Positions 57,415 through 60,034 of a DNA stretch of 61,638 nt are shown in pieces. The notes beneath the pieces were generated by a model. It saw nothing but the letters and a program-made list of their open reading frames with translations, made no database searches and was not told where the DNA came from. Position 1 is the first letter of the stretch; each line of letters opens with the position of its first letter. Made by a program: the position numbers and the translations under genes. The DNA is from an uncultured Geobacteraceae bacterium (lineage in GTDB: Bacteria > Desulfobacterota > Desulfuromonadia > Geobacterales > Pseudopelobacteraceae): assembly GCA_903845365.1 (NCBI GenBank), contig CAIMXI010000262.1, positions 1 through 61,638 on the forward strand, read 5' to 3'.

Positions 57415-57993
57415 TTGACCTCTAGGCTACTTAAAATTGCAGGTAGCTTGGCAATGTTAAGTGCATTTCTAACTTTGCCGCTGGTTTACGTGTCTTATAA
57501 ATTGGAGAACAAGGCCGATTTGATTACAATCATCGTTCAGACAGTAATAACGCTTTCAGGAGCTGTTCTCTTTACTTTTATAGTTTTATACCTGATGAAG
57601 TTTATTCACGCTTTTTTTAAATTTCACAGAGTAGATCGAAATTTATTGCTTTTGATTGTGGCAAATATCGTTGTAGCTGTACTCACTTTAGTAGCAATTT
57701 ATTTTACCCAATTGAAGGAATCTATTGAATACGCAGTATTAACGGTAGTTGTAGCTCAAGGAATAGTACAGACCCAGTTAGGTTACAAACTCTTAAAGCT
57801 ACCAAATGACCTCGGGGGTATGCTGAAACCATTCTGTTATGCAAATATTGCAACTGGAGTATTGATGGCTTCAATTTTTCTGATACCTCTTGGAATTGTG
57901 GCAAGTGCAATTTCAGATCTCATGTTGGGAACAATATTTTTGAATATGGGAAAATTGGTACAGAATTATGAATCGATGCGGATAAGGAGTTAG
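57415..57993 (+). CDS. Membrane protein of unknown function
   Basis: A 192-residue protein with five or six hydrophobic helices (for example LITIIVQTVITLSGAVLFTF and LLLIVANIVVAVLTLVAIYF). It has no motif I recognise. The start is TTG at 57415 with AGGA six bases upstream. An ATG 13 codons later is an alternative. Its codon use is A/T-rich compared with neighbours. It stands alone before the aroF leader region. Confidence 0.55.
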   Translation: MTSRLLKIAGSLAMLSAFLTLPLVYVSYKLENKADLITIIVQTVITLSGAVLFTFIVLYLMKFIHAFFKFHRVDRNLLLLIVANIVVAVLTLVAIYFTQLKESIEYAVLTVVVAQGIVQTQLGYKLLKLPNDLGGMLKPFCYANIATGVLMASIFLIPLGIVASAISDLMLGTIFLNMGKLVQNYESMRIRS

Positions 57994-58030: not shown

Positions 58031-58060
58031 TTGACAACTGCAAGACTGCTGTGCTTTAGT
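58031..58060 (+). promoter_or_regulatory. Predicted promoter of the aroF leader transcript
   Basis: TTGACA (58031-58036, exact consensus) and TTTAGT (58055-58060) are 18 bases apart. Transcription would begin near 58067, at or just before the leader-peptide start codon, which would give a leaderless or nearly leaderless mRNA. A start a few bases upstream is also possible. Confidence 0.6.
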
Positions 58061-58067
58061 GTCGCTC

Positions 58068-58154
58068 ATGAAATCTAACCGCTTCTACGTCGCATTTAGC
58101 TTTTACTTTTGGTTCGGCTTTTATTTCAGGCCGTCTGCCCGGGTAACGCTGTAA
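58068..58154 (+). CDS. Aromatic-rich leader peptide for attenuation
   Basis: A 28-codon ORF starting MKSNR and ending PSARVTL. Residues 6-20 read FYVAFSFYFWFGFYF: seven Phe, three Tyr and one Trp in 15 positions. Its stop (58152-58154) lies 27 bases before a strong terminator hairpin. Such a run is the hallmark of a sensing leader peptide, like that of pheA in E. coli. Ribosome pausing at these codons, when charged aromatic tRNA is scarce, would favour the antiterminator (58133-58194). There is no obvious ribosome-binding site, but initiation could occur near the 5' end. It is not part of a longer protein. Confidence 0.8.
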   Translation: MKSNRFYVAFSFYFWFGFYFRPSARVTL

Positions 58155-58194
58155 GCGAGGAAGCTATTACACGAAACCACAAGCCGGGGCAGAC
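58133..58194 (+). promoter_or_regulatory. Antiterminator pairing of the aroF leader
   Basis: gtctgccc (58133-58140), in the last codons of the leader ORF, is exactly complementary to gggcagac (58187-58194), the 5' arm and flank of the terminator stem. Two further pairs form (gg 58141-58142 with cc 58184-58185) around a one-base bulge. Formation excludes the terminator. A ribosome at the leader stop would cover the first arm. Confidence 0.7.
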
Positions 58195-58214
58195 GCAAGT
58201 CTCCCCGGCTTTTT
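58182..58214 (+). terminator. Attenuator terminator upstream of aroF
   Basis: agccgggg (58182-58189) pairs with ccccggct (58203-58210), extended by agac/gtct with one bulged C. A GCAA tetraloop caps it, and TTTTT (58210-58214) follows. It is a textbook rho-independent terminator, placed between the leader ORF and aroF. Confidence 0.85.
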
Positions 58215-58237
58215 ACTGCCTGTTAATTCAGTGCAAC

Positions 58238-58264
58238 CAAGGCCGGGGAGAACTTCCGGCCTTG
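58238..58264 (+). promoter_or_regulatory. Second stem-loop before aroF
   Basis: caaggccgg (58238-58246) pairs with ccggccttg (58256-58264) over nine bases, with no T-tract. Its segment gccggggag (58242-58250) is exactly complementary to ctccccggc (58201-58209), the 3' arm of the terminator. A third alternative fold is therefore possible, in which this segment also disrupts the terminator. Confidence 0.6.
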
Positions 58265-58289
58265 ACTGTTTGTGGGAAAGGAACAGGGA

Positions 58290-59309
58290 ATGATTATCGT
58301 AATGAAGGCAGGTGCAGCAAAGAGGGATAAGGATGTGGTGCTGAGGCGTATCAAGGAGTTGGGGTACACGTCACACGTTATTCATGGCACGACACGTGAT
58401 GTGATCGGAGCTATCGGTGATGAGCGGGGTAAAGCTGCATTGCAGGCACTGGAGAATCTGCACGGTGTTGAGAATGTGCTGCCAATCCTGCAACCTTATA
58501 AATTGGCTTCACTTGAGGTCAAGAAGGAGTCTAGCATAGTAAAAATCAGTGATACTCTCTCAATCGGCGGTTCGCAGATTGTCGTTATGGCTGGCCCTTG
58601 TGCGGTTGAAAGTGAAGAGCAGATTATTGAATCCGCCCTTGCCGTAAAAAAATCAGGAGCACAGATGCTGCGTGGCGGCGCGTTCAAGCCGCGTACCTCT
58701 CCATATTCATTCCAGGGGCTTGAAGAAGAGGGACTGAAGCTGTTGGCCAAAGCACGCGACCTGACCGGACTTCCCTTTGTAACTGAAGTTATCAATCCTG
58801 AAACAGCCGATATGGTCGCGGATTATGCTGATATGCTGCAGATTGGCGCCCGTAATTCGCAAAATTTTGCGCTGTTAAAAAAAGTTGGCCAGCTTGGCAA
58901 ACCGGTACTCCTGAAGCGCGGTATGGCAATGACAATTCAGGAATTACTGATGAGCGCCGAATACATTATGAGTGAGGGGAACCAGTCTGTCGTTCTCTGC
59001 GAGCGCGGAATTCGTACATTTGAGACAGCCACCCGCAACACCCTTGATTTATCTGCTATTCCTGTATTGAAAGGGAAAACGCACCTCCCGATAGTTATTG
59101 ACCCGTCTCACGGCACCGGAAATCACCATTATGTGGTACCAATGAGCTATGCTGCTGTGGCAGCGGGAGCCGACGGTCTGATTATCGAGGTTCACCCTGA
59201 TCCTGAACATGCCTCATCTGATGGCGCCCAGTCTCTGAAACCGGCGAAGTTTGATGTAATGATGCAGAAATTGAGACTTTTTGCCGAAGCGGACGGAAGA
59301 ACAATGTAG
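58290..59309 (+). CDS. aroF: DAHP synthase, type I-beta with regulatory domain
   Basis: About 339 residues from the ATG at 58290 (AAGGAACAGGGA upstream), the first enzyme of aromatic amino acid synthesis, joining PEP and erythrose-4-phosphate. An N-terminal ferredoxin-like domain (about 1-75, MIIVMKAGA and [14 protein letters not shown]) is the Tyr/Phe-binding regulatory domain known in Thermotoga maritima DAHP synthase. The barrel has [28 protein letters not shown] and [12 protein letters not shown]. Enzyme feedback and transcript attenuation would both sense the end products. Confidence 0.95.
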
Positions 59310-59371: not shown

Positions 59372-59477
59372 TTCCCTTTTAATCTGGTACGAGAGACCAG
59401 CAAAGGCGACACGATGACTACATTAAATTCATAACAGAAGGGCCTTGCCGCTTGAATCGGGGGAGGCTCTTTTTTTT
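59372..59477 (+). promoter_or_regulatory. PyrR-type attenuator of the pyr operon
   Basis: tttaat (59378-59383) followed by the stem ctggt/accag (59384-59388 and 59396-59400) with a GAGAG-containing loop and caaagg (59401-59406) matches the PyrR RNA-binding loop seen upstream of other pyrR genes. About 30 bases later comes a terminator: gggcct (59440-59445) with aggctc (59464-59469), then eight T (59470-59477). When UMP-bound PyrR holds the binding loop, the terminator would form and lower expression of the whole operon. PyrR itself is the next gene, so the circuit is autoregulatory. Confidence 0.7.
59440..59477 (+). terminator. Attenuator terminator before pyrR
   Basis: A stem closed by gggcct and aggctc with an inner ccg/cgg helix is followed by eight consecutive T at 59470-59477. 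It lies 20 bases ahead of the pyrR start codon, between the PyrR-binding loop and the gene. Confidence 0.75.
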
Positions 59478-59494
59478 ATCCACAAGGAGGTTGA

Positions 59495-60034
<540 letters not shown>

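Follow-up and report, generated by a model that had tools for sequence, protein, structure and literature searches.

The aroF gene of the genome studied here, whose product is a type I-beta DAHP synthase, is preceded by a conserved leader that we regard as highly likely to be a ribosome-mediated (leader-peptide) transcription attenuator, making aroF transcription depend on the charging of tRNA-Phe and tRNA-Tyr; where transcription starts, its termination, and how it responds to Phe and Tyr are inferred from the sequence. The window, that is, the whole stretch of 61,638 nucleotides that was analysed, contains the following features of this element, given in order of their first nucleotide.

58031..58036, plus strand: -35 box TTGACA of the leader promoter, read from the sequence, with its position kept in relatives
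58055..58060, plus strand: probable -10 box TTTAGT (spacer 18), predicted from the sequence and an alignment of relatives
58068..58154, plus strand: leader peptide ORF MKSNRFYVAFSFYFWFGFYFRPSARVTL, with ATG at 58068, TAA at 58152-58154, and 28 codons; conserved in relatives
58081..58164, plus strand: leader hairpin 1:2, of the protector/pause type, in which segment 2 is buried in the absence of ribosomes (folding and swap tests)
58083..58127, plus strand: run of aromatic codons, the proposed sensor (residues 6-20, FYVAFSFYFWFGFYF), which holds the modelled stall positions
58132..58144, plus strand: segment 2, the antiterminator 5' strand (folding, conservation)
58177..58182, plus strand: 5' strand of stem P1, CCACAA, pairing with 58270-58275 (swap test, alignment)
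58181..58214, plus strand: predicted intrinsic terminator 3:4, with the hairpin at 58181-58211, a GCAA loop, and the T-tract TTTTT at 58210-58214
58183..58195, plus strand: segment 3, common to antiterminator 2:3 and terminator 3:4 (folding, conservation)
58238..58264, plus strand: conserved hairpin P4, GGCCGGGG...CCGGCC
58270..58275, plus strand: 3' strand of stem P1, TTGTGG, ending one base before the aroF Shine-Dalgarno sequence
58277..58282, plus strand: aroF Shine-Dalgarno sequence AAAGGA, with anti-Shine-Dalgarno pairing in all Geobacterales
58290..59309, plus strand: aroF, type I-beta DAHP synthase with an N-terminal regulatory domain

The assignment of aroF, already made in the first-pass annotation of this DNA, is borne out by NCBIfam PRK08673 (504.9 bits) and by a match over the full length to Thermotoga maritima DAHP synthase (1rzm/3pg9); DAHP synthase catalyses the first step of the pathway making the amino acids proposed to be sensed. 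The genome of the window (G000) is Geobacterales-like, and its nearest named relatives belong mostly to Geobacteraceae. A plus-strand ORF (57415-57993) precedes the region 58031-58289, and pyrR, pyrB, and pyrC come after aroF. Between aroF and pyrR, at 59400-59497, reading by eye shows an inverted repeat rich in G+C (AAGGGCCTTGCC...GGGGAGGCTC) with 8 T after it, directly before the pyrR Shine-Dalgarno sequence, which looks like a candidate pyr attenuator; this repeat is absent from the output of the terminator scan, and Rfam gave no PyrR element in the window.

The leader ORF, its promoter, and its distribution

Within residues 6-20 of the leader ORF, 11 of the 15 residues are aromatic, and both this run and the length of 28 codons agree exactly with what had been claimed at first. 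The next-best short ORF in the window reaches at most 6 aromatic residues (1041 short ORFs compared, the leader included), and in simulated windows with the same dinucleotide make-up (n = 20) the best short ORF peaks at 6 to 8; the aromatic content of the leader is far above chance. Among relatives, position 3 is the most variable position of the leader codons, and in distant groups the leader sequence diverges with its Phe/Tyr richness retained. As expected of an attenuator, this is a short translatable ORF, rich in codons for end products of the pathway and conserved as coding sequence.

The aroF upstream regions were gathered from the class and from named genomes, yielding 162 distinct sequences. 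Nearly all Geobacterales and other Desulfuromonadia have an aromatic-rich leader ORF upstream of aroF, as do some contigs of Thermodesulfovibrionales, Syntrophaceae, and Desulfobacterales. A covariance model (R1), which spans the element from the Trp codon to the T-tract, has matches in 122 of 127 Geobacterales genomes and in 29 of 29 genera, in single copy in all genomes but one; the genome of the window has one copy, and about 20 matches compared by eye with the positions of aroF lie 63-81 bp before the gene. The five Geobacterales genomes without an R1 match include G102, G176, G146, G220, and G245. In G102 (locus L029), aroF is present and 85% identical to that of the window, no leader is found in the region before it, and the upstream sequence resembles the final part of a response-regulator gene, which suggests loss of the element in this genome. 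No aroF match was obtained for G176, and all matches in G146 and G220 are of the weaker sort typical of the paralogue.

This second type I-beta DAHP synthase paralogue is 49-58% identical (G000:C235:18369-19352, L205, in the genome of the window), and no aromatic-rich leader was found at 11 of its loci in 10 genomes (L202-L212). Four Nitrospirota-labelled contigs (L073, L077, L080, and L081) carry an aroF 74-78% identical to that of the window together with leader and terminator, and gene and attenuator may have been transferred horizontally together. The 261 bp upstream of a Bacillota aroF homologue (L107) contain, as read by eye, a hairpin resembling a terminator and a T-box-like motif (GGGTGGTACCGCG); this region has no Rfam match, and the homologue may be controlled by another tRNA-sensing mechanism.

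The consensus promoter of the first-pass annotation holds for its -35 box, which is a perfect TTGACA, and not for its -10 box, the best of which, TTTAGT, agrees with the consensus at only 4 of 6 positions and was not reported by a simple consensus promoter scan. TTTAGT is credible because its distance to the leader ATG is fixed in relatives. In all 96 Geobacterales compared, TTGACA, with at most one mismatch, lies 35-38 nt 5' of the leader ATG, and normal promoter geometry would therefore place the transcription start at the leader ATG or 1-2 nt upstream of it. A Shine-Dalgarno sequence is almost absent before the Geobacterales leader ATG (mean of -1.8 kcal/mol versus -7.9 for aroF); the leaders of Desulfuromonadales mostly have one (mean of -6.2 kcal/mol; 18 of 26 at -5 or better). 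Because of the -35 spacing and the near-absent Shine-Dalgarno sequence, the leader of Geobacterales is probably translated from a leaderless mRNA beginning at the predicted start site.

Alternative hairpins and the position of the ribosome

The RNA from 58060 to 58290, which the first-pass annotation had proposed to fold, is 4 standard deviations more stable than its shuffles (z = -4.0), and 0 of 200 shuffles were equally stable. The strong terminator with GCAA loop and T-tract that had been described is present (hairpin energy of -23.5 kcal/mol plus TTTTT) and is kept in relatives; a predicted intrinsic terminator thus lies between the leader ORF and the structural gene. The antiterminator had been given as eight exact bases, and gtctgccc at 58133-58140 does pair with 58187-58194, within a complete helix that is longer and has 12 pairs (58132-58144/58183-58195). 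This antiterminator is conserved and mutually exclusive with the terminator, an arrangement characteristic of attenuators.

The 8-mers at the core of segments 2 and 3 are fully paired (8 of 8) in 107 of 119 relatives, compared with 9.5% when segment 3 is shuffled, and compensatory variants occur, such as GTCCACCC/GGGTGGAC and CTCCGCCC/GGGTGGAG. Without guidance, RNAalifold applied to 33 sequences (Geobacterales and Nitrospirota-like contigs) recovered both antiterminator 2:3 and the inner hairpin of 1:2, with 3 pairs changed on both sides. A swap test, which scores the own partner against partners from other species, gave z values for 2:3 of -8.3 in Geobacterales and -4.9 in Desulfuromonadales, and of -7.0 (leader:segment 2) and -10.5 (leader:post-stop) for the leader pairings in Geobacterales; the swap and pair statistics retain some relatedness and are to be judged against the controls, most region pairs not proposed to pair scoring about -3.6 to +3.7. 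In the closest family, 2:3 is almost invariant (99.5% of cells paired) and therefore little informative. The first-pass annotation had let its reading depend on such a comparison, and the ORF, the Phe/Tyr codons, and the compensated 2:3 pairing all proved to be conserved.

Both hairpins are intergenic, and the plus-strand gene upstream ends at 57993, which would suit a constitutive terminator or the transcript-end hairpins of that gene, with a fortuitous ORF and no regulation. This is extremely improbable given that the element has its own promoter at fixed spacing to the leader ATG, that the antiterminator is conserved, and that the aromatic ORF is conserved in 29 of 29 genera.

In the attenuator that we propose, RNA polymerase would start at or beside the leader ATG. 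A ribosome slowed in codons 6-20 would leave segment 2 (58132-58144) free to pair with segment 3 (58183-58195) before segment 4 exists, and aroF would be read; a ribosome that reaches the stop codon at 58152 would cover segment 2, so that 3:4 would fold as an intrinsic terminator. When there is no translation, 1:2 could sequester segment 2. The same logic of stall and stop had been put forward from the sequence of the window, and folding by ribosome position reproduces it in 100 of 100 species. In this nascent-RNA model, the transcript ends just before segment 4 and the RNA is masked to 9-15 nt past the A-site; in each of the 100 species folded, 2:3 is predicted for stalls at no fewer than half of the aromatic codons and is blocked when the ribosome sits on the stop codon. 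In the window, every stall position inside the aromatic run leaves segment 2 free in the model; F20, the final aromatic codon, is the last permissive stall, and segment 2 is masked from R21 onward.

This attenuator geometry appears in the nascent-RNA model and is not seen in the window with the equilibrium model of the full leader. Because the terminator is the equilibrium fold of the completed leader at every ribosome position in the window, the decision of the predicted attenuator must be kinetic and made during transcription. In classical attenuators, the decision is likewise taken while the RNA is synthesised. The nascent fold without a ribosome has 2:3 formed in 59 of 100 species; the state predicted by default in the absence of translation thus varies among species.

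It is very unlikely, in our view, that the element is instead a structured RNA or riboswitch binding an aromatic metabolite or a protein directly, with the leader ORF incidental. The RNA is large and conserved, including the sequence of the P4 hairpin, and part of the leader ORF is indeed constrained by RNA pairing, since the PSAR codons are segment 2; however, the aromatic codons stop exactly where a stalled ribosome starts masking segment 2, third positions are the most variable in the leader, and the leader of distant groups has diverged yet is still Phe/Tyr-rich. As to attenuation by the leader peptide, the conservation of leader and switchable terminator in nearly all relatives makes it very probable that DAHP synthase is made only under Phe/Tyr shortage. 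Judged from the sequences compared, the attenuator is real and widespread in Desulfuromonadia.

A second RNA domain before aroF

The long-range stem P1 and hairpin P4 form a second domain before aroF. In the swap test, P1 scores z -7.7 in Geobacterales; its arms differ by genus (e.g., CCGAAA/TTTCGG and CCAAAA/TTTTGG), and 1 compensatory pair is found in alignment A1. In the same alignment, 5 of 11 pairs of P4 are changed on both sides. By its conservation, the P1/P4 domain is real. Desulfuromonadales have a different long helix, between the post-terminator region and the aroF Shine-Dalgarno region (swap z -7.1), and the accessibility of this Shine-Dalgarno sequence is 0.28 versus 0.42 in shuffles (p 0.0007); translational control of aroF through the helix is possible in this order. 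In Geobacterales, the accessibility of the aroF Shine-Dalgarno sequence is not below that of shuffles. At six Desulfuromonadales loci (L112, L118, L126, L133, L137, and L144), a long covarying helix was noted that links the T-tract region of the terminator with the Shine-Dalgarno sequence of aroF.

Such a domain might add a second layer to the attenuator, P1/P4 (or, in the sister order, the helix into the Shine-Dalgarno sequence) controlling aroF translation; since P1 crosses the 2:3 antiterminator topologically, the same leader ribosome might even switch both layers. The arms of P1 match within species, the stem ends one base before the Shine-Dalgarno sequence, and the helix and reduced accessibility in Desulfuromonadales point in the same direction. 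We nevertheless consider this extension doubtful, as the Shine-Dalgarno sequence of Geobacterales is as accessible as in shuffles, forced 2:3 does not free it in either group, and the possible coupling pairing 4:5 is at control level. If it is true, a leader-peptide attenuator that includes a translational arm would be conserved across the whole class.

Two schemes were discarded. One held that 2:3 pairing frees the aroF Shine-Dalgarno sequence, which forced 2:3 does not do in the models of Geobacterales or of Desulfuromonadales. The other was a six-segment cascade, in which a freed segment 4 would open P4 via 4:5; it was tempting because Syntrophia-like relatives have two tandem terminators with complementary arms, and the 4:5 match scores z -1.8 and -2.0, the level of controls. 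Four more distant relatives (L090, L095, L102, and L106) have two tandem terminator-like hairpins between leader and aroF, both with T-tracts, and arm 4 of the first and arm 5 of the second hairpin are complementary.

Comparison with known attenuators

No known leader or riboswitch family of Rfam reaches the gathering score in the window, and the region of the element gives only chance-level matches; a search of a plasmid collection gave no match. A paper on Rfam-based regulons stated that phenylalanine attenuators were absent from Rfam at the time of writing (PMC3766115). The genome paper of Geobacter metallireducens lists, upstream of the Thermotoga-type DAHP synthase Gmet_0346/GSU3142, a "predicted short RNA element" that is conserved (PMC2700814). 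Conservation and a place before a Thermotoga-type DAHP synthase gene in Geobacteraceae are common to that RNA and the element described here, but neither a leader peptide nor a mechanism was proposed for it (PMC2700814). The two may be the same element; gene position in other genomes suggests that the aroF of the window corresponds to the other paralogue, Gmet_0024/GSU3333. Identity to the T. maritima enzyme was rejected as a criterion for the Gmet_R0069 question, both paralogues being 49-54% identical to it.

The probable leaderless leader differs from the textbook attenuators of Escherichia coli and has precedents elsewhere. In 2014, Neshat et al. are said to have called the attenuators of Corynebacterium glutamicum leaderless transcripts. 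The aroF enzyme of C. glutamicum is of type I-alpha, not I-beta. In Sinorhizobium meliloti trpL, the 5' end of the attenuator RNA is the leader ATG and the leader peptide is leaderless, as is predicted here; unlike the present element, trpL senses Trp, controls trpE(G), and belongs to an alphaproteobacterium (PMC7298713).

The mechanism is classical, that of trpL, pheL, and pheST. E. coli pheL-pheA and pheST share with the present element a Phe-rich leader, alternative antiterminator and terminator, and ribosome stalling (PMC11802643), but they control other genes and sense Phe only; the DAHP synthase genes of E. coli are instead under the repressors TyrR and TrpR (PMC11802643).

The first-pass annotation knew of no described case on such a gene in this lineage, and none was found there; no earlier description of the aroF leader came up in the literature searched, which takes in a minority of subscription journals. 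A DAHP synthase attenuator is nonetheless described in another phylum, namely C. glutamicum aroR, upstream of the DAHP synthase gene aroF, which was first noted in PMC4046766. In the passages of PMC11802643 that relay Neshat et al. (2014), the aroR leader contains Phe-Tyr-Phe, and aroF transcription rises under Phe limitation, Tyr availability being without effect in that account. Both systems thus place a Phe/Tyr-containing leader peptide before a DAHP synthase gene, with three aromatic residues in a row in the aroR described there and 11 of 15 here (PMC11802643). What appears new here is the broad distribution of a DAHP synthase attenuator, of which no description came up in the literature searched, together with the conserved second RNA domain before aroF. 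The attenuator would widen the known range of DAHP synthase control by leader peptides from a single actinobacterium to a whole class, and it gives a concrete, testable account of control over entry into aromatic amino acid synthesis in Geobacter-type bacteria.
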